From Candidatus Zhuqueibacterota bacterium (GTDB lineage: Bacteria; BS750m-G25): a stretch of 18,160 bases of DNA. The stretch lies in assembly GCA_016783505.1 (NCBI GenBank), contig JADHWK010000045.1:1-18160 (forward strand), given 5' to 3'. The translations under genes were made by a program, and so were the position numbers. The notes beneath the pieces are model-generated. The model did not search any database. It was not told the origin of the DNA and saw only the letters and a list, made by a program, of their open reading frames with translations. Numbering within the stretch: the first letter of the stretch is position 1; every line of letters begins with the position of its first letter. Of the stretch, positions 907 to 17,517 are shown piece after piece.

Positions 907-1080
907 ATGTTCAATAACTACAAATACGAAAAACCCGCATTTATCGCGAAAAGGAGCACCGACGCCCTCACAGCAGCATTTGCCGGTGGTGGGTGGTTGC
1001 ATCTAAATGATCCCCATAGATCGGATAAAGCATCGCCTAAATATGATTTGACTGTGAAACGATATGAAAGACGAAATTAA
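907..1080 (+). CDS. small peptide, RiPP-precursor-like with YEKP leader motif and GGGW (57 aa)
   Basis: The start at 907 is chosen because GGAGG (894-898) lies 8 bases upstream; an in-frame ATG at 892 overlaps that site. The product starts MFNNYKYEKPAF. Y-x-x-P or 'YEKP' blocks of this kind occur near the N-terminus of lasso and other RiPP leaders, where they are read by the modifying machinery. It then has TAAFAGGGW, followed by a polar, charged tail rich in His, Asp, Lys and Arg that ends KRYERRN. Its last codons overlap the start of the ABC ATPase gene, so the two are translationally linked. No transmembrane segment or signal peptide is visible. Position, size and motifs make it the strongest precursor candidate in the window; the function remains inferred. 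Confidence 0.6.
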   Translation: MFNNYKYEKPAFIAKRSTDALTAAFAGGGWLHLNDPHRSDKASPKYDLTVKRYERRN

Positions 1081-2062
1081 TAGGAAAAGCCAGCCACTCC
1101 TGACCATTAAGGGGTTAAAAACAGAATTTAGGGTTCAAGACAATAAGGTGCTTCGAGCGGTTGACGGTATAGACCTGGCCATAAATTCTGGAGAGATACA
1201 CGGTTTGGTAGGAGAATCGGGATGTGGGAAAACGGTCGCCTCACTTTCCGTCTTGCGCTTGATCTCTCCTCCTGGTTACATTTCGGCAGGAGAAGTCTTG
1301 TGGAACGGTAATAATTTGTTGAGATTGAAAAAAGGGGAAATCAGAAAGATTCGGGGGAAAGAAATCGCCATGATTTTTCAGAATCCTCAAGGGTCTCTCA
1401 ACCCCCTATACACTATTGGTGAGCAAATAGCCTCCATCATACGTTTACACAAGAATATATCCAAGAGAGAGGCACGAGAAGAGGCATTAAGACTGCTTCA
1501 GGAGGTGAAGATTCCCGATCCTGAAAGCAGGGTGAACGACTATCCCCATCAATTGAGCGGGGGGATGTGCCAGAGGGTGATGATAGCCATGTCCCTATCC
1601 TGTCAGCCAAAACTACTTATAGCGGATGAGCCAACTGCAGCCCTGGACGTGACCATTCAGGCCCAAATTCTTGACTTGCTTCTGGAGCTTCGTGGGAGGT
1701 TTCAGATGGCCATGTTATTGATCTCTCATGATATGGGAGTGGTGGCCAGAATGTGCGACCGGATATCAGTCATGTATCTAGGGAAAATCGTGGAAGAATC
1801 GGATGCTGAAGGGCTTTACTCGAATCCAAAGCATCCATATACTCAGGCGCTTTTGAAGGCTGTTCCGATCCCGAATCCCAGTGAGAAGGCGGCGTTTTCT
1901 TTACTGAAAGGAGACCTGCCCAGTTCTATTGATATACCTTCCGGCTGCAGGTTCAGGACTCGGTGCCCCAAGGTTTTTGATCGATGCATCCATGAGCCTG
2001 AATTGGAGTCTGTTGATCAAAATGGCACCATGGTTGCATGTTGGCTCTATGAAAAAGAATAG
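1064..2062 (+). CDS. peptide ABC transporter ATP-binding protein, DppD/OppD family
   Basis: This 332-residue ATPase would power the peptide transporter encoded at 3594-7011. The Walker A motif GLVGESGCGKT is at residues 47-57, the signature LSGGMCQR at 164-171, Walker B ending ADEPTAALD with D188/E189, and the switch histidine H222 in LLISHDMG. The C-terminal extension has the oligopeptide/dipeptide-transporter signature HPYTQALLKAVP and a Cys-containing GCRFRTRCP segment, as in DppD and OppD. Length is normal for the family. Its start overlaps the preceding peptide ORF by 17 bases; the ribosome site is weak, suggesting translational coupling. The usual partner ATPase (DppF/OppF) is absent from the window, so the protein may work as a homodimer or share a partner encoded elsewhere. 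Confidence 0.95.
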   Translation: MKDEINRKSQPLLTIKGLKTEFRVQDNKVLRAVDGIDLAINSGEIHGLVGESGCGKTVASLSVLRLISPPGYISAGEVLWNGNNLLRLKKGEIRKIRGKEIAMIFQNPQGSLNPLYTIGEQIASIIRLHKNISKREAREEALRLLQEVKIPDPESRVNDYPHQLSGGMCQRVMIAMSLSCQPKLLIADEPTAALDVTIQAQILDLLLELRGRFQMAMLLISHDMGVVARMCDRISVMYLGKIVEESDAEGLYSNPKHPYTQALLKAVPIPNPSEKAAFSLLKGDLPSSIDIPSGCRFRTRCPKVFDRCIHEPELESVDQNGTMVACWLYEKE

Positions 2063-2069: not shown

Positions 2070-3197
2070 ATGGAACCTATTGAATTGTGGTATGGCCTCA
2101 TAAACTCAATGATGATGGAACAGGGATTGTTCAGAGACCTAAAGGCTGTCTATGAAAAGAATTCTCCTTTTATCGCAGAAATAATTATGAACAGCTTCTG
2201 TCCCAGCAAGTGCCAGCACTGTATTTATGCTCCAGACTTTCATCTTTACAATAAAAATCTGACCCAGGATGAATGGAAAGAAGCCTTCAGGGTCATTCAT
2301 GACGAATTGGGATTGAATAGATTTATATTTGATGGAAGAGCGTTTACAGAGCAATGTATTCGGGCGATAGAATATTTAAAGGAAAACTTCGGAGATGTGA
2401 AAGTCGGACTGATCACTGATGGCATTTCCATTGGACCATTCGTAGAAAGACTCATCGATTTCCCGCCCGATTGGCTTGATGTCTCGGTGGACGGGCTTGA
2501 AAAAGAACATGATCTCCAAAGAAATCATATAGGTGCCTTTAGAAAGACATTTGATGTTTTAATTCAGCTTAAAGACTCTAATCGCTTTGATAAGATTAAC
2601 ATCTTGAGCTGTTTGACTACCTTAAATATTGGCTCAATCTTGGAAATGATAAGATTTTTGAATGCCAAAGGCTTTAAAAATTTTTTTATAACACCGGTGA
2701 GCGTTTTAAAGGGATATCGCCCTGACCCAGACCTTCAACCGCAGAGGGAAGAATTTGTCAACTTCCTCGATGAATTTCTGATAACGTCAAATACTTTGTT
2801 CGACACATGGCTCGAAGTTGACATTTATGAGGCCATATACGCCAATACCATCAGACAGCTAAGGCCCCAACTTTTCAATGAGTTCATGATGGAAAATGAC
2901 CATCTTGAACTTGTGAAAGCGCACGGAAATAATGAGGTTCATATCTCCTATTACCCATTGTCCCTAACAGGTGTTCGAGAGTTCATTGTAAATTCCGATG
3001 GAAATATTATCCCACCAAAGGTCGTGGCAATGGGAAAAATACCCAGGGAGTTTGTTTTTGGGAATTTATTGGAACTTGGAGGAAAAGAAGAGAAATTCGA
3101 TCAGTTAATGTCCAGCCAGGCCTTTTCCTTCTACATGTCAGAGTTATTGAGTGAGAAAGCCTTGCTGGGACGAGATAATGGGGGAATACCAGGATGA
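2070..3197 (+). CDS. radical SAM enzyme with a cysteine-free SPASM-like C-terminus
   Basis: The 375-residue product has the radical SAM cluster motif CPSKCQHC (C44, C48, C51), which binds the 4Fe-4S cluster that splits S-adenosylmethionine. The barrel continues with FIFDGRAF in place of the usual GGEP strand, then GLITDGISIG and a VSVDG strand followed by HD-x-x-RN, all typical of peptide-modifying members. Near residues 303-340, the segment VNSDGNIIPP...GKIPREFVFGNL has the outline of a SPASM domain, but where that domain carries cluster-binding cysteines there are none. I chose ATG 2070, 7 bases after the ATPase stop; ATG 2049 (7 codons longer) is possible and neither has a strong ribosome site. 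Neighbouring small ORFs are the likely substrates. Linkage chemistry cannot be read from sequence. Confidence 0.9.
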   Translation: MEPIELWYGLINSMMMEQGLFRDLKAVYEKNSPFIAEIIMNSFCPSKCQHCIYAPDFHLYNKNLTQDEWKEAFRVIHDELGLNRFIFDGRAFTEQCIRAIEYLKENFGDVKVGLITDGISIGPFVERLIDFPPDWLDVSVDGLEKEHDLQRNHIGAFRKTFDVLIQLKDSNRFDKINILSCLTTLNIGSILEMIRFLNAKGFKNFFITPVSVLKGYRPDPDLQPQREEFVNFLDEFLITSNTLFDTWLEVDIYEAIYANTIRQLRPQLFNEFMMENDHLELVKAHGNNEVHISYYPLSLTGVREFIVNSDGNIIPPKVVAMGKIPREFVFGNLLELGGKEEKFDQLMSSQAFSFYMSELLSEKALLGRDNGGIPG

Positions 3198-3468: not shown

Positions 3469-3483
3469 AGCTATGGAATCATG

Positions 3484-3491: not shown

Positions 3492-3495
3492 AAAG

Positions 3496-3597
3496 ATGGT
3501 TAGAAATTTTGCAACAAACATTGGAAGCAACGGAAAGGGAAAGCCGTTCAAGGAGGGCACCGAACCCCCAAAAACAAAAGGTGGAGGCCTGCGATGA
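3496..3597 (+). CDS. 33-aa peptide, candidate precursor or signal peptide ORF
   Basis: This ORF encodes 33 residues: MVRNFATNIGSNGKGKPFKE, then GTEPPKTKGGGLR. It is basic and rich in Gly, Lys, Asn and Pro, with no hydrophobic segment, so it is not a secretion leader or membrane peptide. Its stop overlaps the ATG of the binding-protein gene (ATGA at 3594-3597), and a very strong ribosome site precedes it. Such a short, well-translated ORF between a radical SAM gene and a peptide-binding protein may encode a precursor or signalling peptide. It may instead be a leader ORF serving translational coupling of the binding protein. No homologue comes to mind. Confidence 0.5.
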   Translation: MVRNFATNIGSNGKGKPFKEGTEPPKTKGGGLR

Positions 3598-5270
3598 AAA
3601 TAGCAGACGGTATCACGAATCGCACTGAAAGTTCAATGGGGAGCACCATGCTAAATCAAGAACTTGGTTGCTTAAGAAAAACAGGTAGGCTACTTACGGG
3701 ACTGTTCATTGCGGTTTTGATTTGTGCCTTCCTGCCTCCCGCGGCACAAGCCATGAGACTGGTTTTTGGTTTGGATACAGCTCCTGAAAGGTTAATTCCC
3801 ATCAAAATCAAGAATCCGCAGACCTTTCCGGTCAGCATGCAGATATTCCAGGGGCTGTGCGATTTGGATGAGAAGGGGAGTGTTATCCCTTGTATTGCCG
3901 AAAGCTGGGACACAAAAGATTACAAGACCTGGCGCTTTCACATCAGAAGGGGAGTTTTCTTTCAAAAATCTCCGATCTTTCAGAATGGGACAAGGGAAGT
4001 TACAGCCGAAGATGTCTTGTACTGCCTCACTCGGTTCTGTTCAGCATCCTCTTACAATGCATTCTTGTTGATTGATTCGGTAATAGGCGCTGCTGAATAC
4101 AATCAAGGCAAGGCAGAAAAAGTAAAGGGGTTGAGTTTGCTCGACAAATATACCATTCAGATAGACTTGCTTCGGCCGGAGCTGTTTTTCATCAACCGTC
4201 TTAGCACAGCCCTGGTTTCTGTTTTTCCAAGGGAAGTAGACAAAAAGGAATACGGGGAAAAAGTCGGGCTATCTTTGGTGGTGGGCACAGGCCCCTATGT
4301 ACTTCAATCAAGGACAGAAACAGAGGTGGTCCTCAAAAGAAATGACAATTATTGGAACACTGCAACCCAACCTCATTTTGATGAGATCACCTTTCGAGTG
4401 ATAAGAAATGATCAGATGCGCCTGGTTAATCTGCAAAGGGGAAACATCGATCTGATGGTCCTGCCGAGTAGTCTGTTTCCATCGGTTTTCAATAGGAACG
4501 GGACGTTGAGGGAATATATAAGCAAAAAATTCCAAATGAAGATTGCTGCCACTTTCAATACCCATTTCCTCGGGATTAACAACACAGCGATTCCTGATGT
4601 GAACCTTAGGCGGGCGATGTTCTGGGGGACGAATAGAAAAGAGATAATTGACACCATCCTTTATGGATATGCGGACCTGACTGGCGGCCCGGTGCCCCCT
4701 GGAATAGATGGATACAAATCACCCTTTACGGATAGTTTATTCGACCCTGATAAGGCAAAAGCCTATTTGAAGAGAAGTAATTACAGAGGAGAGCCTTTAG
4801 AATTGCTCCTCTATGATATCGCAAATAGCGAACAAGTTGGGCAGATATTTCAGGCCCAGATGGCCAATGTTGGGATTCAAGTCGTGTTAAAAAAGCTGGA
4901 TTTTAACAGCGTCATTAACCGTATGGTAAAAGGGGAGTGTCAGCTTTTCAGCATGTTTGCCGAATATGTATTCTCTTCCCCACAGCCAATCCTGATCAAT
5001 CTTTTTTCATCTTCCAAGATCCCCGTCCCTAATGTTTTTCACTTTTCAAACAGCGCGGTGGATGCCATGTTGAATTCCCTTTACACGATTACAAATGAAA
5101 AGGAGTCGGTAAGGGAATGTTCCCGGATTGTGGATAGGATTATGCAAGGCGTGCCGGGCGTTTTTCTTTACAGGCAAAAGTATGTTATTCTCTACCCTAA
5201 GGAAATGACTGGCCTCGAAGTCAGTGGAAATAATCATTATTTTCTCGAAAAGATGAAGATTGGGCGATGA
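3594..5270 (+). CDS. extracytoplasmic peptide-binding protein, OppA/DppA family (SBP_bac_5)
   Basis: The 558-residue protein has a Sec signal peptide with hydrophobic core LLTGLFIAVLICAFLPP and probable cleavage after AQA at residue 53. There is no clear lipobox, which suggests a soluble periplasmic protein. The mature part shows the family pattern: IFQGLCDLDEKG, AESWD, WRFHIRRGVFF, then EVTAEDVLYCLTRF, GTGPYVL and ND-x-YW. Length is usual for the family. ATG 3594 has GGAGG 6 bases upstream but gives a 31-residue n-region; ATG 3648 would give a shorter, more typical one. It overlaps the 33-aa peptide gene upstream and the permease gene downstream by 4 bases each, so it should deliver a peptide, perhaps the modified cluster product, to those permeases. 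Confidence 0.93.
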   Translation: MKIADGITNRTESSMGSTMLNQELGCLRKTGRLLTGLFIAVLICAFLPPAAQAMRLVFGLDTAPERLIPIKIKNPQTFPVSMQIFQGLCDLDEKGSVIPCIAESWDTKDYKTWRFHIRRGVFFQKSPIFQNGTREVTAEDVLYCLTRFCSASSYNAFLLIDSVIGAAEYNQGKAEKVKGLSLLDKYTIQIDLLRPELFFINRLSTALVSVFPREVDKKEYGEKVGLSLVVGTGPYVLQSRTETEVVLKRNDNYWNTATQPHFDEITFRVIRNDQMRLVNLQRGNIDLMVLPSSLFPSVFNRNGTLREYISKKFQMKIAATFNTHFLGINNTAIPDVNLRRAMFWGTNRKEIIDTILYGYADLTGGPVPPGIDGYKSPFTDSLFDPDKAKAYLKRSNYRGEPLELLLYDIANSEQVGQIFQAQMANVGIQVVLKKLDFNSVINRMVKGECQLFSMFAEYVFSSPQPILINLFSSSKIPVPNVFHFSNSAVDAMLNSLYTITNEKESVRECSRIVDRIMQGVPGVFLYRQKYVILYPKEMTGLEVSGNNHYFLEKMKIGR

Positions 5271-6199
5271 TATCCTATTTGGTGATGCGGTTTGGTTACT
5301 ACCTCTCCATATTCCTGGGGATCATTGTTTTTTCTTTTCTCCTCTTCCATGTCATACCGTCTGATCCTGCAAGAACCATTTTGGGGCCCAACGCTGATCA
5401 AGCACAGGTTGAACAACTGCGTGAGAAACTGGGGCTTAATGAACCCCTTTATCGCCGGCTGGGTTACTATTTAGTAAATGTGGCTACCCTTAAATTTGGC
5501 CATTCTTATGTTGACGGCAGAGATGTCTTTATTGAGATTGGCAGGAGATTTAAGGTCACATTGTCTCTGATCACGGTTTCCATGGTAATCGTTTTTGGGT
5601 ATCTGGCTGTTACAATCCTGACATTTCGTTTCTCTTCACTTCAAAGATGGTCCCATGCCATTGATTTCTTGATTTCATCCCTGCCCGTGTTTTTTAGCGG
5701 AATTATCGGCGCGATATTTGTTCTCTATTTCTATCCGGTCACCTCCTTTTCGGGCAATCTGAACTCAGTAAACGATCTTATTTTTCTAATTCCTCCTGCG
5801 CTGGTTCTTGCCTTTTATCCTATGTCCATTCTGTCGGGGATATTGAAAGAGGAAATGTCTTTTGTCCTGCAGTCCCTCTACATAACAGCGGAGAAATCCT
5901 GGGGGTTTTCAGACATTACGATATTGTTCAAATATGCTTTGAAAAACTCGCTAATTCCCATATTGTCCGCTCTATCAAATATATTGCCAATGCTTCTGAC
6001 AGGCGCTTTTATTGTAGAGATCATCTTCTCTGTTCCGGGCATAGGAAGTATTCTGGTAAAGTCAATTCTTGAGCAAGACTTCCCCATGCTCGAATGTACA
6101 GTCATCGTCAATGGGGCCTTTTTTGTGCTCGTAAACCTCGGATTTGAGTATCTGTATCCGCTGCTGGATCCCCGAACAGTTAGAGGAAATAAAATATGA
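5267..6199 (+). CDS. peptide ABC transporter permease, DppB/OppB family
   Basis: A 310-residue inner-membrane protein beginning with a TM helix (FGYYLSIFLGIIVFSFLLFHVIP) and the family motif PSDPARTILGPNA, then LREKLGLNEPL and a FGHSYVDGRDV loop. Five further hydrophobic stretches follow. The cytoplasmic EAA-type loop AEKSWGFSDITILFKYALKN is followed by NSLIPILSAL, then the usual VEIIFSVPGIGSIL and the C-terminal LLDPRTV. All features are ordinary for the family. Its start overlaps the binding-protein stop (ATGA), and its own stop overlaps the next permease start the same way. The loop has E-K-S-W-G where most relatives have A-R-A-K-G, a modest divergence in the ATPase-contacting region. Confidence 0.93.
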   Translation: MISYLVMRFGYYLSIFLGIIVFSFLLFHVIPSDPARTILGPNADQAQVEQLREKLGLNEPLYRRLGYYLVNVATLKFGHSYVDGRDVFIEIGRRFKVTLSLITVSMVIVFGYLAVTILTFRFSSLQRWSHAIDFLISSLPVFFSGIIGAIFVLYFYPVTSFSGNLNSVNDLIFLIPPALVLAFYPMSILSGILKEEMSFVLQSLYITAEKSWGFSDITILFKYALKNSLIPILSALSNILPMLLTGAFIVEIIFSVPGIGSILVKSILEQDFPMLECTVIVNGAFFVLVNLGFEYLYPLLDPRTVRGNKI

Positions 6200-7011
6200 A
6201 TCGGCAGAGGGGCATCCTCTATTTAATGATCTTTATGGGTATGCTCTGGATTGGAGGGGTCGTTTGTTCTAAGTTTGCACCACATAATCCCTTGGAGATT
6301 CTTCTGTCGGAAAGGCTGACTCCGCCTAATAAAACCTATCTCTGCGGGACGGATGAACTTGGTCGTGATATCTTCAGCAGAATTCTGGTCGGCTTTTCAA
6401 ATACCATGAATGTCTCCATTATGACCCTATTCTCTTCCTTTTTCATAGGGGTATTAATCGGGCCACTTGCCGGTTTTTTTTACAACACGGTCATTGACAG
6501 GCTTTTCAACTGGGTCGCAGCCATGCTCTTTTCCTTACCTTTCTTACTAATCATTACGGCGTTGATGAGTTTGCTGGAAAAGAACCTATTTAACGCGTAT
6601 GCAGTGATGACCGCCATTATTTGGGTCAGCCCTGCGCGAATCGTAAGAGCAGGCGTGATTAAAGCAAAATCCGCTACCTTTGTTGTGGCAGAGCGAGCCA
6701 TGGGGAAATCTGAATCCACGATTCTCTTTCGGTCTCTCATACCGATGAGCATCCGACCGGCCTTTATTTTCTCATTCAAGTATTTTCCGGAAATTATAGG
6801 CATGGAGGCGGGACTTTCATTTCTGGGATTGGGTGTTCAGCCGCCCCACCCAGGCCTGGGCAAAATGATTTTTGACAGTCTAAATTATCTTTATTCAGGC
6901 TGGTGGTATGCATTCTTCCCCGCCTTTTTTCTCTTTGTGATAGTCTTTTTGAGCAATATGGTTTACCGCTGGGTTTCTGGAAGAGCAGCGTACACACGCC
7001 AGGAGGTCTAA
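6196..7011 (+). CDS. peptide ABC transporter permease, DppC/OppC family
   Basis: A 271-residue membrane protein, partner of the preceding permease. It has one N-terminal TM helix, the family hallmark CGTDELGRDIFSRILVG, further helices, an EAA-type loop (ERAMGKSESTILFRSLIPMS) and the characteristic EAGLSFLGLGVQPPHPGLGK before the last helices. Length is slightly short but within range. The start overlaps the DppB-like stop by 4 bases. Its stop at 7009-7011 is 4 bases before the kinase-like gene, whose GGAGG ribosome site lies inside this gene's end, tying the transporter and the signalling genes into one transcript. Confidence 0.93.
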   Translation: MNRQRGILYLMIFMGMLWIGGVVCSKFAPHNPLEILLSERLTPPNKTYLCGTDELGRDIFSRILVGFSNTMNVSIMTLFSSFFIGVLIGPLAGFFYNTVIDRLFNWVAAMLFSLPFLLIITALMSLLEKNLFNAYAVMTAIIWVSPARIVRAGVIKAKSATFVVAERAMGKSESTILFRSLIPMSIRPAFIFSFKYFPEIIGMEAGLSFLGLGVQPPHPGLGKMIFDSLNYLYSGWWYAFFPAFFLFVIVFLSNMVYRWVSGRAAYTRQEV

Positions 7012-7015
7012 TCCA

Positions 7016-9610
7016 ATGGCAGAATTCTATAATAAATTTTATCGAGAGGAATTCTATGTATTAAGCGACCGTTTACCGAATAAGTTGGCCAAAGACCAAT
7101 CACTTTTCCTAAACACCTTCGATTATCGCAATCGATGTGTAAACTTCAATGCTATTTCACCGGATAAGAGACGGTTCGAAGATGGGATATTTAATGATGG
7201 ATTCATGGAGTTCTGCAAAAAATGGAGCCATTTTGATCACTTTAAGAAGCAGATTAGAGAATTCTATAGAAAAAAAGGTGATAGCTATATCAGTATACTC
7301 GATGAATTCACATCGAAAGGACAAGCAAACGAGAGTGAAAAAATTAATTTACACTATCACTTAGTTGAACTTTATCACTCCTTTCCAAGTAATCCCGAAA
7401 TGTACCTCGATGGAATACTGAGAAAACTGTCAACTCAATTAGCCAAGAGAAATATTAGATTTAGGTATGCAACCATAGATCTTGTTGAAAAAGAAAAATG
7501 TGACTTCAAAGATTTTCCATGGGTTAAAATGACGTTTTTTGATCCGAATGAACCCAGCGGGGTCATTAAAATAAAAATTGATTCCGAGCGTGAATCCGAG
7601 CCTGGAATAGAAGAGATACTGGCAAGCCAGGAGACTCTCGATATCTTAGAAAATTGCCCACCCCCGAAAGAAACCGAACCGATGAATTCGCGACCCACTA
7701 CCAATACTGATGAACGGTTTAAGCCTCATATCTTGCATAACTACCTTTATCCTCTCTTTTCTAAGAAAAAGAAAGACTTCATTGGAGGTGATTGGTATAT
7801 TGACGAACCTCCTAAATCGTTTTTGGTAATGCCTATCTATTCAGCCGATTTTCATGATGGTGATTTTGGCACGATTATTGGCTACTTCTTTTTGCCTTTC
7901 ACATCCAAACAAGATAGAGGAAAATTCTTGAAGAATCACAAAAATGAATTAGATAAGTTATGGCAAACATGGACAACCTTGACACTGCAAACCTTGCTCG
8001 AAGGGAAAAAGCACTTAATCTCAGACCACGATCTCCGGCACGATGATAGTCTTAAAGATTTTCTGGATAGCATAGCTTTTGTGCAGGACTGGGAAAGAGT
8101 GTTGGTTTTCGGCAAGGAAGAAGCGACCGAGCCAGAATACTGCTTTAAAAGATTTAAGGGAGGGAAGGATGGCAAATGGTTGTCCTACGAAGAAGTTTGG
8201 GATATTTGTAGAAATGGCAAAAAGGGAAAGTGTAATGGATGCATTAAAGGGTTTGGCAACAAATCGGTGAAAGACCTTTTTATGTCAAGTGGAAGAGACC
8301 CCTCACCTAAAAAAATCTATAAGGACTCAACAAATGATAAGTGGTTTTTCTTCCTGTATATGGACCATATTCTTGATCCAAGAGTTTTGCCATCTATCGA
8401 AGAGGCAGATAAGGCAAGATATTCAAATCACATCATTTGTTTTGAGTTTCCAGAATATACCTTCTTCCCCACGGAAATCTGGGAAAATGAGGAAGAGGCA
8501 GTGGAAGAGCTTGGCGATCACTATGTCAAAAAACTCCTTCCGAGTTTTGATAAAGTGATCTTGAAAAGAAGGGTTTTGAAACACAGTATAAAATCCGCAG
8601 TAGCTGCCATTATGAGCCGAAACATGTCTCATAATATTGGGAGCCACATACTTGCCAGGATCAAACTCGAAGAAATTTCTTGGAAGGTTAAGGATGCTCT
8701 GAAGAGAGTCAACGATGATAGGATAACGGATATATGCAACTTGCTCTTTGAGGAATTCCACCAGTATATCCAGAAAAAGAGCGACTTTCTTGCCGAGATC
8801 TCAACAGAACCATATATCTCACCCCGTTCGGCCTTCTTTTATAAGGACGTAATCCTGCCCCTAACAGAGAAGATCCTCCTATTGGACTATATTGCCAGAA
8901 ACGATGGGATAAGGTACGAGCAATTGTCTATAAGGTTTTTTTCAAAGTCCAGGTCAAGAGGCTGCTGTTGTGAATTAGCGCCTGTAAAATACGAAGGAAA
9001 AGAGTGTTCCGAGAATGATAATAAGCCGAAGAAAGTGCCTTTTCATAAGGTATGCCTAGATTGCGCTGCTGAAGAAGGTTACGCAGTTGATGATGTGCGA
9101 TATTATGTAAATGGTGTTAAGAATTCCAATTATGATGTAATGCTTGATCTACCTGGGAGCGTGGGTGAGTTTGCAATTTATAATATCCTTGAGGCTATCA
9201 TCCGAAATTCTGCAAAGCATAATAGCTCAAAGATAGATAATGGTACTAAGCTTGAGATATCAATCAAGGTGGAAGAAGATGAGGACCCCGCCCTTTACAT
9301 CTGCACCGTCTGGGACAATCTCAGCGATGAAGACCTAATAAATAAGATGAATGGGTATATTGAAGAGACAATTGTGGATCAGAAGACTGGAAAGCTAAGG
9401 CCCCAGAACTGGGGTATTGCCGAGATGAAGATCTGTGCCGTACTCTTGCAGGACAGATCCTTCGAGGAGATGGAGAGTGATCCAAGGCGATTTCTTGAGG
9501 CTGTGCAAGTTAGCGGTAACAGGCTTGGATACCGTTTCAAGATCCTGCGGGCAAGGCGGAGCTTGCTCTTGTTAGAAAATACATGGGATAAGCTCTGTAA
9601 TGGAGGTTAA
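7016..9610 (+). CDS. soluble histidine-kinase-like GHKL ATPase with cysteine clusters
   Basis: An 864-residue protein without TM helices or signal peptide. The first 520 residues match no sensor domain I know and include a C398-x7-C406-x2-C409 group. A helical segment carries MSRNMSHNIGSHIL (533-546), where H539 or H544 could be the phospho-accepting histidine. The ATPase domain follows: N-box EAIIRNSAKHN (726-736), D767 in WDN, and NWGIAEMK (798-805) as a G-box-like loop. Between them are CCC (650-652), C664 and CLDC (680-683), perhaps a metal site. GGAGG sits 9 bases before the ATG. This should be the input kinase for the receivers encoded downstream. The G-boxes are imperfect, so ATP binding without autophosphorylation remains possible. 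Confidence 0.8.
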   Translation: MAEFYNKFYREEFYVLSDRLPNKLAKDQSLFLNTFDYRNRCVNFNAISPDKRRFEDGIFNDGFMEFCKKWSHFDHFKKQIREFYRKKGDSYISILDEFTSKGQANESEKINLHYHLVELYHSFPSNPEMYLDGILRKLSTQLAKRNIRFRYATIDLVEKEKCDFKDFPWVKMTFFDPNEPSGVIKIKIDSERESEPGIEEILASQETLDILENCPPPKETEPMNSRPTTNTDERFKPHILHNYLYPLFSKKKKDFIGGDWYIDEPPKSFLVMPIYSADFHDGDFGTIIGYFFLPFTSKQDRGKFLKNHKNELDKLWQTWTTLTLQTLLEGKKHLISDHDLRHDDSLKDFLDSIAFVQDWERVLVFGKEEATEPEYCFKRFKGGKDGKWLSYEEVWDICRNGKKGKCNGCIKGFGNKSVKDLFMSSGRDPSPKKIYKDSTNDKWFFFLYMDHILDPRVLPSIEEADKARYSNHIICFEFPEYTFFPTEIWENEEEAVEELGDHYVKKLLPSFDKVILKRRVLKHSIKSAVAAIMSRNMSHNIGSHILARIKLEEISWKVKDALKRVNDDRITDICNLLFEEFHQYIQKKSDFLAEISTEPYISPRSAFFYKDVILPLTEKILLLDYIARNDGIRYEQLSIRFFSKSRSRGCCCELAPVKYEGKECSENDNKPKKVPFHKVCLDCAAEEGYAVDDVRYYVNGVKNSNYDVMLDLPGSVGEFAIYNILEAIIRNSAKHNSSKIDNGTKLEISIKVEEDEDPALYICTVWDNLSDEDLINKMNGYIEETIVDQKTGKLRPQNWGIAEMKICAVLLQDRSFEEMESDPRRFLEAVQVSGNRLGYRFKILRARRSLLLLENTWDKLCNGG

Positions 9611-9611
9611 G

Positions 9612-10847
9612 ATGAACGGGGTTGAATGGGAAAGGCTTGGATGTTTTCATAAGGAGGATATTGGTGGAGCCGTTGTATCTTTTGGAGGGTATATCCCTTT
9701 TGAACTTGTTATATTTGATACGACCTCTCTTGATCATAGTGCGGTTGAAAAGTTTGCCATTGAAGTGAAAGAAAACCTCCCCTACATGGGGAACAGAATA
9801 CTGATCCTTATAAGGAATAGCGAAATTCCTGCCTCTCTGAATGGTCTGGAAAGGACCTGTGCCATCTGTTGTAAGGACGATGTCTGCAAATCCCTTAATT
9901 CTAAACCACCGGAGCTATGGCCTGGGATACTCCACTACATGTGGTTAAAGGGGATCTCAGGAAGGTCGGACTGGAAAGTCCATATCAACCTGGATGTATG
10001 GGAAAAGGATCGTTTGACTGACCAATGGAAAAACATAGAAAGCAACATCTCCAAATTCCTACCTGGAATTTCTTTGACTGCCCTTCATAAGAAAAGGGAG
10101 CATGACAAATCAAATGAATCAAATGGAAATAACCCAGACCTCCAAGATCACAGTATCGTATTCGATAGGCACGCTGTATTTTGGTATTCCATGGAATCCT
10201 CCCTTAAGGATTTATCTTTCAAGGGGCACTACGAGGAATGGGGCATAAATTCTCCTTTATATCTTAGCCTATTTAACCCGCCGGAATCTGTGGTTGCTCA
10301 AATAGACCTTGTTGTAGGTCTCCTTGAGACCTCCTTTTTCAAGATCCTGGTGGTGGATGAACGGATTGGAGAAAAGGCCCTTGACTCTACGTCAGCGAAT
10401 ATGGAAAGGTTCAAAATGCTTGCCAATATGGGAGTTTTTATTGTAACCCATGTTGGCGATACCCCCGTTGGCAAAGATATTTCCGAACAGGCATTCAGTC
10501 TCACAATACATAATAATACATTGTCTCTTATGCGGAACGGAAAAGAGTACAAACAGTTCCATTTTCTGGTTATTCACCAAGGAGTCATAGAAAACGAAGA
10601 GGTAAGGGCATTTCTTGAGAAAGGCTTGGGTTTGGATAAGAATTGCTCTCCTGAAGATCTTGTAAGAAAAATATCTCATTATGTTCCGTTTGTGGTAATT
10701 GACTCCGGGAGGGGTATACCGGCAAATATGCCCCAGAATGCCAAATTCCTCACCTTTTCTGCCCTGCAGGATATGATTCTCAGGAAAAACCCCGCCAAAT
10801 ATCAATTAATCCAAATACTTTTAAGACTTACCAGGAGGAAACGATGA
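9612..10847 (+). CDS. unrecognised alpha/beta protein, possibly with degenerate receiver-like domains (411 aa)
   Basis: ATG 9612 is chosen because GGAGG (9602-9606) precedes it by 5 bases; ATG 9600 overlaps that site. The 411-residue product is soluble. Three strand-like blocks stand out: FKILVVDERIG (about 243-253), FHFLVIHQGVI (316-326) and FVVIDSGRGIP (360-370), followed by AKFLTFSALQDMIL and a basic tail LLRLTRRKR. The first and last resemble the first strand and acidic turn of CheY-like folds without the full catalytic set. A C-A-I-C-C group lies in the N-terminal third. It is placed directly after the kinase and before other receiver-like proteins, with overlap at both ends, so a partner or effector of the kinase is likely. 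Function not recognised. Confidence 0.7.
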   Translation: MNGVEWERLGCFHKEDIGGAVVSFGGYIPFELVIFDTTSLDHSAVEKFAIEVKENLPYMGNRILILIRNSEIPASLNGLERTCAICCKDDVCKSLNSKPPELWPGILHYMWLKGISGRSDWKVHINLDVWEKDRLTDQWKNIESNISKFLPGISLTALHKKREHDKSNESNGNNPDLQDHSIVFDRHAVFWYSMESSLKDLSFKGHYEEWGINSPLYLSLFNPPESVVAQIDLVVGLLETSFFKILVVDERIGEKALDSTSANMERFKMLANMGVFIVTHVGDTPVGKDISEQAFSLTIHNNTLSLMRNGKEYKQFHFLVIHQGVIENEEVRAFLEKGLGLDKNCSPEDLVRKISHYVPFVVIDSGRGIPANMPQNAKFLTFSALQDMILRKNPAKYQLIQILLRLTRRKR

Positions 10848-11602
10848 AGATAATATTCTTTTTTACCCACAAAAGATCTGAAATAAGAAACATGGGTGAC
10901 CGGGATCCCCCTGGATTTAATGTTGATGATACCTCGTGTCCCATCCAATTGAAATCTAATGGAAGACAAATAGTTTATTATTTCAAAGTTGAATCTAATG
11001 TAGTGAACTGGAAAGAGAAAGTAACGGAGATAATAAATCATTATAATCTCGATTCTGCCGAATCCATCTACTTTTTTCATTATCAAACTATGAAACCTGA
11101 AACGATTAGGGGCAACCTCAGTCTTCATGGTAAAGTCGTCGAAAAATTTACAAGCAGTGGCGACACGCGAGAGCTTTGGGATCAGATAACGGGAATAAAA
11201 TGTGTTTGTCAAGGTGGGAAAGTAAGTGAACCTCAAGTATTTGAGAAAATATTCGATGAGATATGGAACAGATACAGCGTACGCCCAAGAATTCACCGCC
11301 TCCGCTATGGAATCCTCTCTCCCCTTGTTGCTCTTGACCTGATTAAACAGGCTGAAGTAAATAGCTCGTCGGATAAGAGCACTGACTTGAGTACCCTAAA
11401 AAACGAAATCGAGACAGCTATTGATAATCTTGGTGAGTCAATCAAAGAATTTTGTGAACTTCCAATTAAATGCGATGAGTTCAAGGATCAACTTGAGAAG
11501 TTGAGGAAATATGAAAAATACTCTTCGTGGAAGGATTACCATAAGGAACTTAAAGAAGTTGCTGAAGGAATGGAAGAGCAGATTGCAGCGATTGAATCTT
11601 GA
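10844..11602 (+). CDS. unrecognised protein with C-terminal coiled coil (252 aa)
   Basis: The ATG overlaps the preceding stop (ATGA), and AGGAGG (10833-10838) lies 5 bases upstream, so the start is secure. The N-terminal 160 residues look alpha/beta (MKIIFFFTHKR, RQIVYYFKVES, SIYFFHYQTM) with a C-V-C pair in IKCVCQGG. The last 80 residues are strongly helical and charged, likely a coiled coil (LKNEIETAIDNLGESIKEF and DQLEKLRKYEKY). No membrane segment and no motif I recognise. Tight packing between two putative signalling genes suggests it belongs to the same complex. It could be a scaffold, or an effector triggered by the phosphorelay; nothing in the sequence decides. Confidence 0.7.
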   Translation: MKIIFFFTHKRSEIRNMGDRDPPGFNVDDTSCPIQLKSNGRQIVYYFKVESNVVNWKEKVTEIINHYNLDSAESIYFFHYQTMKPETIRGNLSLHGKVVEKFTSSGDTRELWDQITGIKCVCQGGKVSEPQVFEKIFDEIWNRYSVRPRIHRLRYGILSPLVALDLIKQAEVNSSSDKSTDLSTLKNEIETAIDNLGESIKEFCELPIKCDEFKDQLEKLRKYEKYSSWKDYHKELKEVAEGMEEQIAAIES

Positions 11603-12603
11603 TGAAGCCACTCAGGTTAAATGGGGGAACCGCGATTCAATCCCAGTACGATCTGCCGGATCTACGAGGCAGGCTGAGCAGGCAAGAAGGCACAGTGAAA
11701 TCTATTAGGAGACTGTATCTTGGCATTCACGCTTCAGCCGGCCGCAAAGGATACTCTAACAACCGGGAAAGCATCCTGAATGAGATGATTTCCACCCTTG
11801 CGGATGAGAGCACAAGGATGGGGTTTGCCCTTGCCTGCCCGAGGAGAGTGGCGCCGGATGGAATTTTGTGGATGGCTGATTTGATAAGAAATACGCTCCA
11901 CGCTATTTTCCCTGAAGCGGATAAGCTGGAAATCGTTGATGCTTATAAGGACACAGAAGGCCATGGCACCATGCTGGCCGGGCTTGAGGAGGTGAAGGCA
12001 AAGAGAGCCAAAGGAGGTCTGAGAAGGGCTGTGGTAGTCTATGGATTTGACAGTGACGAGCGGATCAGACAGAACAAGAGCGGCTCTATTTTGGACGCCC
12101 CGGGTGTGTTTTACTTGAGGCTGCCCGCCCTTCTCTCCGATATTAAGAAGGTTTTCGATGAGGCGGCCAATATTCAAGTTATTGAGAACAATGCCATTGA
12201 TGAAAAGAGCTTCAGTGATTATGCCATCCGGGAGATTAGTGCCTTCAAACACCGGTGCGACAATCTATGGATTTCCATGGAGATGAATGCCAACATTGCC
12301 AAGATGGACCTTGATAACTCGCCTGAAACTATGCCAAGCGAGCTTTTTGAATTCAAAACGTCCCATATTGAAAAGCTTTTAGAGGAATACCGTAAACTCG
12401 ATCCAGTAGTGAAGCGACTTGGGATTGCAGATGCTGATAAAGTGACGGGTATGATGGATAAAGTTATTGGTGTAGTAAGACAAATACAGGATAAGAAGAC
12501 CTCGCCCCCAAAGGCTTTAAATCTCGCTTTCGTATGCGTAGAAAAAGGGAGGGCTCTTTCAGCTATTCTTGAGAAGGCAAAGGAGTTGAAATATGGCAAG
12601 TAA
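11602..12603 (+). CDS. pseudo-receiver plus helical domain protein, possible phosphotransfer component (333 aa)
   Basis: Starts at ATG 11602, overlapping the previous stop by one base. Residues 147-175 contain YGFDSDE and ILDAPGVFYLRLP, which match YGFSPFE and LLVSPGVYHLHLP in the N-terminus of the protein encoded at 14115-15980: a shared domain within one operon. After it comes a helical region with EISAFKHRCDNLW; a histidine stands at a similar place in the sister protein (ESELAHHMGNFLG), which could be a phosphotransfer site. The N-terminal 140 residues (RRLYLGIHASAGRKGY, DKLEIVDAYKDTEGHG) may form a further receiver-like fold lacking the acidic pair. The C-terminus overlaps the response-regulator start by 11 bases. 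It has no output domain I recognise. Confidence 0.7.
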   Translation: MKPLRLNGGTAIQSQYDLPDLRGRLSRQEGTVKSIRRLYLGIHASAGRKGYSNNRESILNEMISTLADESTRMGFALACPRRVAPDGILWMADLIRNTLHAIFPEADKLEIVDAYKDTEGHGTMLAGLEEVKAKRAKGGLRRAVVVYGFDSDERIRQNKSGSILDAPGVFYLRLPALLSDIKKVFDEAANIQVIENNAIDEKSFSDYAIREISAFKHRCDNLWISMEMNANIAKMDLDNSPETMPSELFEFKTSHIEKLLEEYRKLDPVVKRLGIADADKVTGMMDKVIGVVRQIQDKKTSPPKALNLAFVCVEKGRALSAILEKAKELKYGK

Positions 12604-14050
12604 ACGCGTTCTTTTTATAGATGACGATTTTAGACTTTTTGAGAAGGCATTGCGTAAACAATTAGGCAAAGCTGGCTTTGAGATCAGATGCGAGGAAGAT
12701 CCTTTCAATGTCCTGAGAGTTATTTCATCTTACCATCCTGATGTCATTCTTCTGGATATCCTCTTCCCCGAAGGCTACTTGGGAAAACCTACCCTCGAAA
12801 AGATCAAGAAAAAACATCCCAACATGCCGGTAATGATGATTACCGGCACCATGGATAAGTCCGAGTACAAATCAGAGCACTATTTGCTGGCCGACTACCG
12901 CTATTCGAAGGAGGCCTTAACAGCAGGGGACTTTTCAGACCTTGCCGCACAACTGAACAGGTTGATTGAAAGGGCAGAGGCTCAGGAACAGGGAGATGAA
13001 GATAACACTGGGCTGGACAGTTTCGGGTTCATTGTCGGAAAGTCAAAGGCCATGCATGAGGTGGCTGAGATGGTGGAAAAGGTGGCTGATCAGGAACACA
13101 CAGTGCTCATTACCGGTGAATCAGGGACCGGCAAAAAGCTTGTAGCCCGTTCCGTACATGACAAGAGCAGACGTCAGAACCGGAACTTCGTGACTATCGT
13201 TTGCGCGGCCCTATCCAAGGAGCTTCTTGAAAGCGAACTCTTTGGACACGAAAAGGGAGCTTTTACAAGCGCGGTTTCAGATAAGAAAGGTAAGTTCGAG
13301 GTTGCAGGAGATGGGACCATCTTCTTGGATGAGATCGGTGATATGCCCCTTGATACCCAGGTTAAGCTGCTCCGTTTCGTGGAGGAAAGAGAATTCGAAA
13401 GGGTGGGCGGAAATGAGGTCCTGAGGTCCAACGCCCGAATCATTGCCGCCACAAACCAGGACCTTCACGACCTTGTCGCAAAGCGAGACTTCCGAGAAGA
13501 CCTCTTTTTTCGATTGAATGTGCTTTCCATCCATATGCCCCCGCTCAGAGAACGTAAGGAAGACATTCCCGTCTTTTTTGAACATTTTATTAATAAAGCA
13601 AATGAGGATTCTAGGAAGAAAGTGTTGCCAATCCTTAGAGAGGATGTAAGGTTGATGCTGCTTTCCTATACCTGGCCGGGTAATATTCGTTTGTTTGAAA
13701 ACCTTATCAATCGTGCTGTTGCCATTGCAGATGAGAACATCCTTCAAGTGAATAATTTCCCCGACCTATCCAAAAAAATGGCTCAAGAGAATGGCGTGCC
13801 ATCTGATGTACCCTATATCGTTGATCGGATTTTAAAGGGTGAATTGACCTGGTCCGATATAAGTAAAGAGTTTGGCGCCAAAGGAATGATACGAAAAGAG
13901 GTACTATCACGAACAATAGATCGCTGGGTAAATGAGAATCAACGTCGGCCTTCTTCCGAAGATTTGGGCACATTATTATCGACTACCCCCGGGAATATGC
14001 GACGCATCCTGTCCGAATGTGGAATTAAGCTGACAGAAATGACGAAGTAG
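12593..14050 (+). CDS. sigma-54-dependent response regulator (NtrC family, receiver-AAA-HTH)
   Basis: A 485-residue activator. The receiver (1-115) has the acidic cluster D10-D11-D12, phospho-acceptor D55 in ILLDILFPEG, T84 and K106, so it should be phosphorylatable. The AAA+ domain has Walker A GESGTGKK (175-182), the sigma-54 contact loop GAFTSA (222-227; normally GAFTGA), Walker B GTIFLDEIGDM (D246, E247), R301/R307 of FREDLFFRLN and WPGNIRLFENL. The C-terminus lacks a plain Fis motif but ends in a helix-turn-helix-like segment (EDLGTLLSTTPGNMRRILSE). It should open promoters held by sigma-54 polymerase when phosphorylated, presumably by the kinase encoded at 7016. The sites at 595 and 17539 are obvious candidate targets. 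Confidence 0.94.
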   Translation: MASKRVLFIDDDFRLFEKALRKQLGKAGFEIRCEEDPFNVLRVISSYHPDVILLDILFPEGYLGKPTLEKIKKKHPNMPVMMITGTMDKSEYKSEHYLLADYRYSKEALTAGDFSDLAAQLNRLIERAEAQEQGDEDNTGLDSFGFIVGKSKAMHEVAEMVEKVADQEHTVLITGESGTGKKLVARSVHDKSRRQNRNFVTIVCAALSKELLESELFGHEKGAFTSAVSDKKGKFEVAGDGTIFLDEIGDMPLDTQVKLLRFVEEREFERVGGNEVLRSNARIIAATNQDLHDLVAKRDFREDLFFRLNVLSIHMPPLRERKEDIPVFFEHFINKANEDSRKKVLPILREDVRLMLLSYTWPGNIRLFENLINRAVAIADENILQVNNFPDLSKKMAQENGVPSDVPYIVDRILKGELTWSDISKEFGAKGMIRKEVLSRTIDRWVNENQRRPSSEDLGTLLSTTPGNMRRILSECGIKLTEMTK

Positions 14051-14114
14051 ACCTAAGTAGGGCGATTTTAAACTCAAATTTTTTGAACCATACTTCATAA
14101 ATAACAGGTGAAAA

Positions 14115-15980
14115 ATGGCTTTATTAGAAAAAGTCCTGCAGAAACTGTGGCCCAATCTGTCGGCTCATTGGGTCAATGTGGATAGCTTTGGCCCCGATAT
14201 CGGCGGACAAATCCTGCAGCTCCGGATGAGACATGAGAATATTGACCCCACCCCGATTATCCTATATGGGTTCAGTCCCTTCGAGAGTCTTGTTCGCTCA
14301 GAAAAAGCGCAACCCGGACTACTAGTGAGCCCTGGAGTCTACCACCTTCACCTTCCAGCAAATTGGGATCGGGTTAAAAGCATTCTTAAAAGAGCCCAAG
14401 AAACTCGCATAGACAGGAAAAAGCTGAAAAGCACGCTGATGAACGACGCTTTAGCTGGCGGTCGGTTGGCACGCATGGAATCCGAACTTGCACATCATAT
14501 GGGGAATTTCTTAGGACCTGAGAAGCTGCTTTATGGCGCTCACCTGGCTGAAATGATTGATCATGAGATTTTTCAGAAAATCTTGGCTAAGATACGGGAC
14601 AAACAGAAAACCATTTTAGAAAGTCGGAAAGAATACTACCTATATCGACTATCACAGGTTAACTATACACCCAACTGGGTTAACAAAATCTCTGAACCAA
14701 AGGTCACGAGAGGCGAAATCTTATATATTGATGATCACGCTCATCTTGGGTGGGCTTTTGCAGTAGCAGCAGCCTTGTTCGGCAAATTTCGATGCTTTTT
14801 CTCTGTGAAAAAAGCCAAAGAATACAACATGGATATTTTCGCATCTTACTTTGAAAATGGTCCTAGTTTATGCGTGATAAACACTGAAGGTATATCAGCT
14901 ACTGAAAATGCTTATATGGACAAAGCCCTCGCGATTGCAAATGATCACACTTTCATTCAGCGTTTTTCTCTCATTTTGGTTGACCTCCGCTTACGTTGGA
15001 AACAAGATGAAAACCAGAACATCAAAGATATATCAGGAATGAAGGTCATCCGTAAGATTCGTGATGCCAATGCGGCTATCCCGGTGATTGTACTCACAGC
15101 ATCCCGAAAGGCCAAGAACATGGAGAGGGTGTTGGAATTGGGCGCTGATGGATATTTCATCAAAGAACTCCCTCAACCAAATGAAAAACAAGATGAAATT
15201 GAGGATTATTATCATCGCTTTGTTCAAGTTGTGAAAGAGGCAATAGATAAGTCTTATTTGGCAGAGGCATGGAGGATTGTGAAAAAGCTGGAATTATATG
15301 AATCTAAAGACTATATAAATTCCAGAATGGATTACAACGAACTTCCAGATGATTTTAAGATAGATTGGCAACAACAGGTGATTAGCCCTTTAAAAAAGGG
15401 GATCGGTTTTATGCGGAAAGAAAATACTTCTTTTGAACAAGATGCCTTTCAACTGTCTACAATAGCAGAAGCCATCATCAACTTCAATCACCCTAACGAC
15501 ACCTTCAAAACCTTAAACGATAATTATAAGGATAGATATAAGAATGAAGTCGATCCACCAATCAGAATTTACCTTAACCCAAATCCCTACCTTTTCAATG
15601 GCCACCTATTGTTGGCGGGCCTACGGAATCTCGCGGCCCATGGTAAACATGAAAAGATCTTTGAAAAAAATGATGGTGAGATTGCCATGTATTTAGGTTT
15701 TAGAGCTCTAATAGGCAAAAAGCATACCGATGCCGTAAACCTGTTAAAGAAGTTAATAACTAAGATATTCCCCCAACATAAAAATCAAAGAATCGATCTT
15801 GAAACAGTAAAAAATGAGGCTACTAATAGAAGAGAACAAGCTGAAACGGATAAAGATCGTCTATATCTTGAATTTTTGGCGGATATAAATACCGAGGAAG
15901 GAAAAAAGCCTCTTGAGCAAGATGAGATTCTTATTTGTGAAATATGCAAGAATCATAACATACCGATAATGCCTTTATGA
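14115..15980 (+). CDS. receiver protein with N-terminal pseudo-receiver and C-terminal HEPN-like domain
   Basis: A 621-residue protein in three parts. Residues 1-100 share YGF...SPGVYHLHLP with the protein encoded at 11602, followed by a helical segment with H-H. Residues about 200-355 form a full receiver: D206-D207, phospho-acceptor D290 in ILVDLRL, T328 in VLTAS and K350 in FIKE. D207 and D290 are 83 residues apart, about 35 more than usual. The C-terminus is helical and contains LLLAGLRNLAAHGK (R504, N505, H509), which fits the HEPN pattern R-polar-x3-H of RNA-cleaving and toxin proteins. A phosphorylation-controlled RNase is thus conceivable. AGGTG near 14107 serves as ribosome site; the 64-base gap upstream is the largest inside the operon. 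Confidence 0.85.
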   Translation: MALLEKVLQKLWPNLSAHWVNVDSFGPDIGGQILQLRMRHENIDPTPIILYGFSPFESLVRSEKAQPGLLVSPGVYHLHLPANWDRVKSILKRAQETRIDRKKLKSTLMNDALAGGRLARMESELAHHMGNFLGPEKLLYGAHLAEMIDHEIFQKILAKIRDKQKTILESRKEYYLYRLSQVNYTPNWVNKISEPKVTRGEILYIDDHAHLGWAFAVAAALFGKFRCFFSVKKAKEYNMDIFASYFENGPSLCVINTEGISATENAYMDKALAIANDHTFIQRFSLILVDLRLRWKQDENQNIKDISGMKVIRKIRDANAAIPVIVLTASRKAKNMERVLELGADGYFIKELPQPNEKQDEIEDYYHRFVQVVKEAIDKSYLAEAWRIVKKLELYESKDYINSRMDYNELPDDFKIDWQQQVISPLKKGIGFMRKENTSFEQDAFQLSTIAEAIINFNHPNDTFKTLNDNYKDRYKNEVDPPIRIYLNPNPYLFNGHLLLAGLRNLAAHGKHEKIFEKNDGEIAMYLGFRALIGKKHTDAVNLLKKLITKIFPQHKNQRIDLETVKNEATNRREQAETDKDRLYLEFLADINTEEGKKPLEQDEILICEICKNHNIPIMPL

Positions 15981-16162
15981 ATTGTAGAGAAAGCTCATGG
16001 AACCTATTATAAGGGATGATGTCCAAAATTATTGTGAAAAACCGGTAGTACATTCTTGGGAATTGAAATGGAAAGGCCACATTTTTTGGAGAAACTGAAA
16101 ATTGGAATTGAGGATTGTGGGTAAGGTGGCTCATAAGAATTTCACTTGAGTGAGGATGAAAT

Positions 16163-17134
16163 ATGGGCAAACAAGATCAATATCGTGTGAAGCCTGATAC
16201 AGATGTGAGTGTTGTTACCAAGGACTATATTAAGAGAAGGCAGGAGGTTATAAAGGATAGAGGTTTATTCAGGGCCATATATTGGGCTACTCTTGCTCCC
16301 GTTACCATCGGCCTTATTCTATTTATTCCACGAGTTGTGCGTGTTATGTACCGCCCAAATGGAGAAACCTCTCTTTCTACAGACTTGCTGATATTATTAG
16401 GACTGTTGGCTTTCAGCTTGGGTATGGCGCTTGTGTTAACGGGTATGCTAATTTCCAGCATAACGAGGAACTTGGTCTTAAAGGAGATAAGGACAGAAAA
16501 ATTAGGGCAATACGAGAGGAAGGCAAAAGCTGATACATCGAAAGCTCTTTCAGTACTGGATGAAGCATCCAACGCAGAGAAACAGCTTCCTAAATGTATA
16601 GAATATGCCTCCGAATGGTTAGAACAGGCAAAAAATGAATATAAGGAAAATGCATTTGGTCCCTTTTGGGATAAAGTCGAGGGATCAGCCTTGAATTTGG
16701 CTGCTTTCTATTCCTCGGTTGAACAGATATCTGAAAATGCTCAAGTATACTATGGAACTTTGAAGGGTCGCAAGCACACTTTCCCCCATTTCTCTCCTCG
16801 GCCTGAATCTCTGCCCGATCCTTCTTCCGTAGTTGAAGACTTTAACAGTATTGTGCGAAAGGGGCAAACCAACTTCCAGTTCGCTTCGATATGGGAGCAC
16901 CGGAAAACAAGAGAAGTACTAATTGCCGGTTTCAAAACACTGGGCCAGGCGGTTAATAATTTAGGAGCAGCGGTAACAAGTTCATTGTCGAATTTAGAGA
17001 GTTCAATAAGCTCCTTGGAAAGCTCATTTTCATATGAAGCAGGAATGATCAGGGATACAATCGCTGATCAAGTGGGCGAGATCGCCCGAGAACAAGAGAA
17101 GACAAGGGAGACCTTTGCTGAGTTAAAGAAATAG
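16163..17134 (+). CDS. two-TM membrane protein with C-terminal coiled coil, function unknown (323 aa)
   Basis: The 323-residue product has a charged N-terminus, two hydrophobic helices (about 37-59, YWATLAPVTIGLILFIP, and 75-98, LLILLGLLAFSLGMALVLTG), then a 220-residue soluble helical part. It ends in a heptad-like Ser/Leu/Glu stretch (SNLESSISSLESSFSYEAG) and REQEKTRETFAELKK. This layout is seen in membrane-anchored scaffolds; I do not recognise a family. GTGAGG lies a few bases upstream of the start. It is separated from the signalling operon by 182 bases without a convincing gene or sigma-54 element. It may be a trailing operon member or have its own promoter. A hairpin follows its stop. 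Confidence 0.8.
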   Translation: MGKQDQYRVKPDTDVSVVTKDYIKRRQEVIKDRGLFRAIYWATLAPVTIGLILFIPRVVRVMYRPNGETSLSTDLLILLGLLAFSLGMALVLTGMLISSITRNLVLKEIRTEKLGQYERKAKADTSKALSVLDEASNAEKQLPKCIEYASEWLEQAKNEYKENAFGPFWDKVEGSALNLAAFYSSVEQISENAQVYYGTLKGRKHTFPHFSPRPESLPDPSSVVEDFNSIVRKGQTNFQFASIWEHRKTREVLIAGFKTLGQAVNNLGAAVTSSLSNLESSISSLESSFSYEAGMIRDTIADQVGEIAREQEKTRETFAELKK

Positions 17135-17137
17135 CAA

Positions 17138-17154
17138 AGAGGCAAATAGCCTCT
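17138..17154 (+). terminator. hairpin after the membrane-protein gene, weak terminator candidate
   Basis: AGAGGC (17138-17143), loop AAATA, GCCTCT (17149-17154): a perfect 6-bp stem 3 bases after the stop codon at 17132-17134. No T-run follows, so it may be a Rho-dependent or processing structure and not an intrinsic terminator. Confidence 0.35.
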
Positions 17155-17335
17155 GAAGTTAATGCACATAAGAAGTAGCCCTGTGTCCTTCCCCCATCCT
17201 GATAAGACGTCTTGTACCAGGCAGGTAAACCAGCCCTTGATCAACGAGTGGAGGAAAAGCTTCAGTAACTCTTGGCTGTCACTAAAGGTCCTTCTAAAGA
17301 AAAATATGGTTTCCATCGGCTGCGCTCCCCGCCTT

Positions 17336-17351
17336 GTTACCATCTCATAAC
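17336..17351 (+). promoter_or_regulatory. GTTAC-N6-ATAAC dyad, same as the upstream enhancer sites
   Basis: GTTAC (17336-17340), six bases, ATAAC (17347-17351), flanked by TT on the left and A on the right, exactly as in the dyad at 469-484. The central six bases differ, so the match is in the half-sites, as expected for a protein-binding operator. It is about 190 bases upstream of the sigma-54-like element at 17539, within enhancer range. A weaker half-site (GTTAT, 17369-17373) follows 33 bases later. Confidence 0.5.
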
Positions 17352-17517
17352 ACCCTATCACCTTAAATGTTATTTTCCAATCGCTGCCGACCTGTATCAG
17401 AGACTTATCTCTCATGAGCAACGTGGGCTTTGTTTGCTTAGGTGAAAGTTTTTTGCGCCTGATTTATATTGTGAAATAGCATAGTTAGGTTTTTCCGGCA
17501 GCCTCCTCATTAAAATA

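Follow-up and report, generated by a model that had tools for sequence, protein, structure and literature searches.

A divergent soluble histidine kinase and its partner protein in an importer-linked operon that looks like an undescribed chemical-sensing system

The window, by which we mean the whole stretch of DNA that was analyzed, is an entire contig of 18,160 bases, so that genes farther out are not visible. Its features are listed in Table 1. The first-pass annotation had described a six-gene module starting at position 7016, with gaps of at most 64 bases. Indeed, all six open reading frames (P1 to P6) were found on the plus strand; neighbors overlap by up to about 11 bases, and 64 bases precede P6. 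P2 may start at 9600 or 9612 and P4 at 11599 or 11602. The later start is likelier in both cases, with a GGAGG just upstream of the former and an ATG overlapping the P3 stop codon at the latter. The proposed beginning of the module did not hold. The second permease gene ends 4 bases ahead of P1, so the operon, of which the six genes make up the inner half, begins well before 7016. What had been missed are the importer genes and the radical SAM enzyme gene upstream. At other loci, too, such genes precede the kinase, and they probably provide its input.

Table 1. Genes of the window, with the evidence for each assignment
Feature	Position	Strand	Evidence or remark
ABC importer ATPase (Opp/Dpp type)	1064..2062	+	Pfam ABC_tran 4.9e-30, oligo_HPY 2.6e-18
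Radical SAM enzyme, CxxxCxxC intact (CPSKCQHC)	2073..3197	+	Pfam Radical_SAM 6.5e-11; equivalent place in L014
Peptide-type solute-binding protein, predicted signal peptide	3594..5270	+	Pfam SBP_bac_5 4.5e-63; clusters with L014_10 and L026_5
ABC importer permease 1	5267..6199	+	Pfam BPD_transp_1 3.4e-19
ABC importer permease 2	6196..7011	+	Pfam BPD_transp_1 8.8e-20
P1, soluble histidine kinase, divergent family	7016..9610	+	Alignment of 25; model; PDB matches
P2, kinase partner, three Rossmann-like domains, last receiver-like	9612..10847	+	Alignment of 24; model
P3, alpha/beta N-terminus and helical C-terminus	10844..11602	+	No Pfam match over cut-off
P4, pseudo-receiver protein	11602..12603	+	Similarity to P6 N-terminal region
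P5, NtrC-type response regulator, intact receiver	12593..14050	+	Pfam Response_reg 8e-11, Sigma54_activat 1.1e-68
P6, pseudo-receiver, His-containing linker, intact receiver, C-terminal helical region with RNLAAH	14115..15980	+	Pfam Response_reg 5.6e-9
P7, two predicted membrane helices (38, 70) and coiled coil	16163..17134	+	182-base gap after P6

When P1 to P6 were compared with Pfam, NCBIfam, and PADLOC, only P5 and the P6 receiver were recognized, and no named system was matched, in agreement with the first reading of the locus. Rfam gave no match in the window or in the Chryseobacterium locus L004. Near the operon ends we observed small open reading frames of 57 to 64 codons with sites resembling ribosome-binding sites (907-1080, 17633-17827, and 17872-18063), one of which could encode the precursor peptide on which the radical SAM enzyme acts. 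The genome containing the window is about 60% complete and is the sole member of its phylum among the genomes searched; therefore, the search within its own phylum was empty.

P1 comprises 864 amino acids, and hydropathy analysis revealed no predicted membrane helix. The motif RNMSHNIGSH, with His539 and His544, lies at residues 535 to 544. Across 25 diverse family members, the aligned stretch AIMxRNMSHNxGSH is invariant, including both histidines, and the ATP-binding boxes are conserved (N box, E726/R730/N731; G1 box, D767; G2 box, G800/E803). The Pfam profile HATPase_c (PF02518) did not match P1 over the cut-off, and P1 was absent from the 16 matches of this profile in its own genome. The model of the P1 core (pTM 0.76) shows two long helices, which form a DHp-like hairpin, and an ATPase domain. 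Among the PDB matches listed by Foldseek, all were histidine kinases or related signaling cores, with histidine kinases leading, and VIA-align superimposed the core on histidine kinases with Z scores of 13.2 over 227 residues and 12.5 over 208 residues. Because of the modeled hairpin and ATPase domain and these PDB matches, we conclude that P1 is a histidine kinase by its predicted fold, although the HATPase_c profile misses it. Thus, the soluble GHKL protein with the motif MSHNIGSH that had been read from the sequence was recovered.

A DNA pattern for NMSHNIGSH led to one IMG/VR contig (L013/L014; IMGVR_UViG_3300036820_000579). This contig is filed as viral and may be cellular DNA; it carries a whole operon in the order of the window, namely, an ABC ATPase, a radical SAM protein, a binding protein, two permeases, a kinase-P2 fusion, two small proteins, a sigma-54 regulator, and a receiver protein. 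The C-terminus of the latter looks DUF3800-like by eye only and had no Pfam match. A search of 84,980 genomes with an alignment of two H-box regions yielded 35 further kinase loci, a lower bound since the search patterns were narrow. These loci belong mainly to Bacteroidota, and also to Myxococcota, Thermodesulfobacteriota, Calditrichota, Acidobacteriota, Elusimicrobiota, and Akkermansia; others lie in bins labeled as archaeal (Methanobacteriota, Heimdallarchaeota, and Aenigmatarchaeota), labels that may be binning errors. Many of the loci are contigs of metagenome-assembled genomes, in which genes were called by a crude longest-ORF selection. Among 290 diverse genomes searched with P1, there was one weak match. 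A search with the pattern YIDDxAxxGW yielded only an unrelated phage protein, and it was discarded. In the kinase tree, the window pairs with L025 (support 95/93), a pairing that may be false since both are long branches.

P2 adjoins the kinase or is fused to it in 32 of the 33 loci in which the contig continues far enough for assessment, a pairing beyond what chance would give. In the exception, L018, the contig ends 386 bases after the kinase gene. The co-occurrence that had been proposed for examination is thus borne out for P2. Fusions of P2 and kinase are present in many relatives, P2 is fused to a receiver in L038, and L030 encodes a single polypeptide of 1794 residues that unites the kinase with P2 and a receiver protein; these fusions add support to the earlier idea of an assembled signaling complex. 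The P2 model (pTM 0.83) contains three Rossmann-like domains. Residues 247 to 410 resemble receivers at Z scores of 4 to 5 (NtrC4, Z 5.2 over 108 residues at 3.8 A; CheB; PleD; RcsC). Profile comparison of P2 with receivers was not significant, its profile matched no PDB sequence, and Foldseek found no match to the modeled fold at an E value of 0.001. The receiver-like nature of the C-terminal domain is suggestive only. In an alignment of 24 P2 proteins, D253-E254-R255, H326, G370, and K400 (DER/IH/SGRG/K) are invariant, indicating a site that is conserved and not decayed. The acidic pair D253/E254 is kept and the invariant His326 ends the third core strand, where it may occupy the place of the phospho-Asp of a receiver. 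The kinase-P2 pair defines a kinase family that is apparently undescribed and escapes the domain libraries now in use.

P3 shares 28 to 29% identity with the Chryseobacterium protein hypB in a forced alignment. It has no significant similarity to the proteins that follow P2 elsewhere, so its equivalence across loci is one of position only. P4 and the N-terminal region of P6 are related (E value of 2e-4) and were joined in an iterated search, in line with the first description of P4 as a pseudo-receiver protein. P5 consists of a receiver and a sigma-54 AAA domain and is the sigma-54 response regulator that it had been taken for. A PADLOC match of P5 to CARF-RtcR covers only the AAA part (residues 125 to 398), and the N-terminus is a receiver; membership in the CRISPR/RtcR group was rejected. 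In P6, the Rx4H motif RNLAAH lies at about residue 504; the corresponding motifs are RNKIAH in its relative L025_14 and RNKFIH and RNDFIH in its Chryseobacterium relatives L004_7 and L005_7. The Pfam profile iREC reached an E value of only 0.13 in P6 and 1.2e-5 in L025_14. Of the receiver-HEPN protein claimed in the first-pass annotation, the receiver and the motif were confirmed, but the HEPN-type region matched neither Pfam nor PDB sequences. This C-terminal region is likely the effector. As for the claim of several degenerate receivers beside two intact ones, the receivers of P5 and P6 are intact, and at least one other in the operon is degenerate. Relatives of P6 contain a His-rich stretch before the receiver, as do the receiver proteins of Bacteroidales (H245..SPFxFHSE); a role of this stretch in phosphotransfer is a guess. 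P7 is possibly an extra output component; short proteins with two transmembrane helices are placed like it in L016, L022, and L033. Taken together, the interpretation given in the first-pass annotation is partly supported.

The link between kinase and importer recurs. Of the 35 loci in which upstream sequence could be used, 32 encode a binding protein in the upstream operon (29 Liv-type and 3 Opp-type), usually accompanied by permeases and ATPases; L020, L045, and L048 have no binding protein in the upstream operon. Since whole genomes typically hold one to three Peripla_BP_6 (Liv-type) genes, this linkage is far from chance. In most loci, enzyme genes lie between importer and kinase or are fused to the kinase, and their kinds differ. 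Radical SAM proteins with an intact CxxxCxxC motif are encoded in the window, L014, L015, L025, and L026, and a candidate was found in L023. Methyltransferases are present at many loci. Furthermore, we found PTPS and GTP cyclohydrolase I (L021); a DHQS-like protein, NAD synthase, and DUF1152 (L016, with the same clusters in L042); an SDR, an isopropylmalate dehydrogenase-like protein, and an isochorismatase (L018); an Orn/DAP (PLP) decarboxylase and P5C reductase (L049); and a methyltransferase with an amidohydrolase (L028). Pfam confirmed the radical SAM, methyltransferase, PTPS, NAD synthase, SDR, decarboxylase, and amidohydrolase sets. No recognizable enzyme was detected in L030, L032, L033, L035, L041, and L046. 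In the clade of L015, L016, L018, and L022 (support 100/99), four different enzyme sets stand beside closely related kinases. In the window, the radical SAM protein is the candidate for an enzyme that makes or modifies a signal.

Downstream of the kinase core, receiver proteins are followed by outputs that vary among the loci: multi-TM proteins (in most Bacteroidales), two-TM channel-like proteins, APH/TCAD9 (L017), and HEPN-motif proteins. One downstream family is common to L020_14 (14548-16437), L023_13 (14449-16491), L028_11 (12716-14572), and L045_14 (15622-17529); HSAPGRLL is conserved among its members, which end in a two-TM, channel-like C-terminus. The swapping of enzyme and output while the kinase-P2 core is kept is as expected for a signaling core that is reused with different signals and outputs.

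We propose that the genes from about position 1064 to 15980 constitute one sensing operon. The solute-binding protein and the ABC importer would take up a small molecule. In the window this is probably a peptide, and the radical SAM enzyme of the operon may make or modify it. Control of soluble P1, acting in complex with P2, would come either from the importer's state or from the ligand that it brings in. P1 would autophosphorylate on His539 and pass the phosphate to the intact receivers of P5 and P6, with P3 and P4 perhaps serving as a scaffold. P5 would then activate sigma-54 promoters, and the HEPN-type region of P6 would act as the effector. That the operon encodes an active, importer-linked kinase relay is probable. 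That the signal is made or modified by the operon itself is plausible, at slightly less than an even chance. The statement as a whole, an importer-coupled multi-receiver phosphorelay whose small-molecule or peptide ligand is often made or modified by an operon enzyme and whose outputs are a sigma-54 regulator and an effector, we regard as evenly balanced between right and wrong. More tentatively, and with doubt prevailing, the loci may represent a new class of chemical communication in bacteria, and possibly archaea, in which one kinase-P2 core with interchangeable signal-making enzymes, matching importers, and interchangeable effectors (nuclease, pore, or kinase-like) converts many private signals into drastic responses.

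The main rival is nutrient control. The importer would bring in food, the enzyme would process it, and the kinase and regulators would adjust how it is taken up or catabolized. The HEPN-like and membrane proteins would then be only regulators or transporters. Importer, enzyme, and kinase genes in one operon are common in catabolic gene sets, and the cargo of Opp and Liv importers is usually a nutrient. Imported nutrients could thus also account for this gene combination, and the NtrC-type regulator P5 would suit such a role. However, the enzymes mostly serve biosynthesis or tailoring (GTP cyclohydrolase I with PTPS, NAD synthase, radical SAM, and methyltransferase), they provide one to three steps and not pathways, and they change within a tight kinase clade. 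Moreover, catabolic control needs neither several receivers nor varied nuclease-like or membrane outputs. We consider nutrient control unlikely, at about one chance in four.

An anti-phage or abortive function, in which the relay restrains a HEPN nuclease or a pore until infection and the importer either takes up an alarm molecule or is the very target being guarded, is less probable still. The scattered distribution across bacterial and archaeal bins, the rarity (among 386 diverse genomes, the kinase was matched in its own genome only), the exchangeable effectors, and the P6 relative that Chryseobacterium plasmids carry beside a retron-type reverse transcriptase would fit such a function. In contrast, plasmids searched with P1 and two relatives and a phage collection searched with one P1 relative contained no kinase-family match, PADLOC matched no core protein beyond the generic AAA part of P5, and a complete importer would be unusual for defense. 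Finally, it is quite improbable that the importer genes and the radical SAM gene are a separate neighboring unit and the six genes work together alone: the unit borders are left open by the contig ends and by a 125-base gap ahead of the binding protein gene, which would allow it, but only 4 bases separate permease and P1, L014 repeats the order of the window, and an upstream binding protein is found in 32 of 35 loci.

The operon thus looks like an undescribed chemical-sensing system, and the literature searched, which did not cover preprints, held no prior description of it. If the importer-coupled relay is real, it would be a soluble importer-fed phosphorelay with an input enzyme and an output effector swapped like cassettes across phyla, perhaps including archaea, and each enzyme with its own binding protein would be a testable lead to an undiscovered signaling molecule.

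With DHp-CA histidine kinases such as CpxA, HK853, and WalK, P1 shares the fold, an H box with an invariant His, the N, G1, and G2 boxes, and receiver partners. It differs from them in the lack of a membrane sensor and of a HATPase_c match, in its near-obligate partner P2, and in the H box RNMSHNxGSH with an Asn after the His. In BceAB-BceRS and Pst-PhoR, the kinase is encoded with an ABC transporter. The window is similar in that the kinase operon contains an ABC transporter, which probably supplies the input; unlike in those systems, its importer is complete with a binding protein, its kinase is soluble, and the operon adds several receiver-like proteins along with an enzyme and an effector; P1 has no predicted membrane helix, in contrast to the membrane kinases of transporter-coupled systems. 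LuxPQ/LuxS and Lsr are binding protein-based quorum-sensing systems. Like them, the window joins a periplasmic binding protein and a probable kinase relay with an enzyme that may be of the signal type, whereas in the family described here the enzyme type varies among loci and the kinase is soluble.

A cassette on Chryseobacterium plasmids (L004, 4329-9440; L005, 4336-9431) shares with the window a P6 relative (pseudo-receiver, receiver, and Rx4H motif) and a small P3-like protein, and another of its proteins looks, by eye, like a degraded GHKL domain. Instead of importer and enzyme, it has a retron-type reverse transcriptase (PADLOC RT-Protease_XI, 5e-98), which is followed by the GHKL-like protein, the P3-like protein, and the P6 relative; among the window proteins scanned with Pfam and PADLOC, no reverse transcriptase match was found. 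The stretch before the reverse transcriptase gene is about 90% conserved and folds better than shuffled sequences (z -2.5), and the cassette is possibly an undescribed retron type. Finally, ternary and other NTP-dependent conflict systems have a MoxR-vWA or GTPase core and swapped effectors (PMC7159879). The family described here likewise has a constant core and swapped effectors, with TCAD9/APH at one locus (L017), but it is built around a histidine kinase accompanied by an importer.
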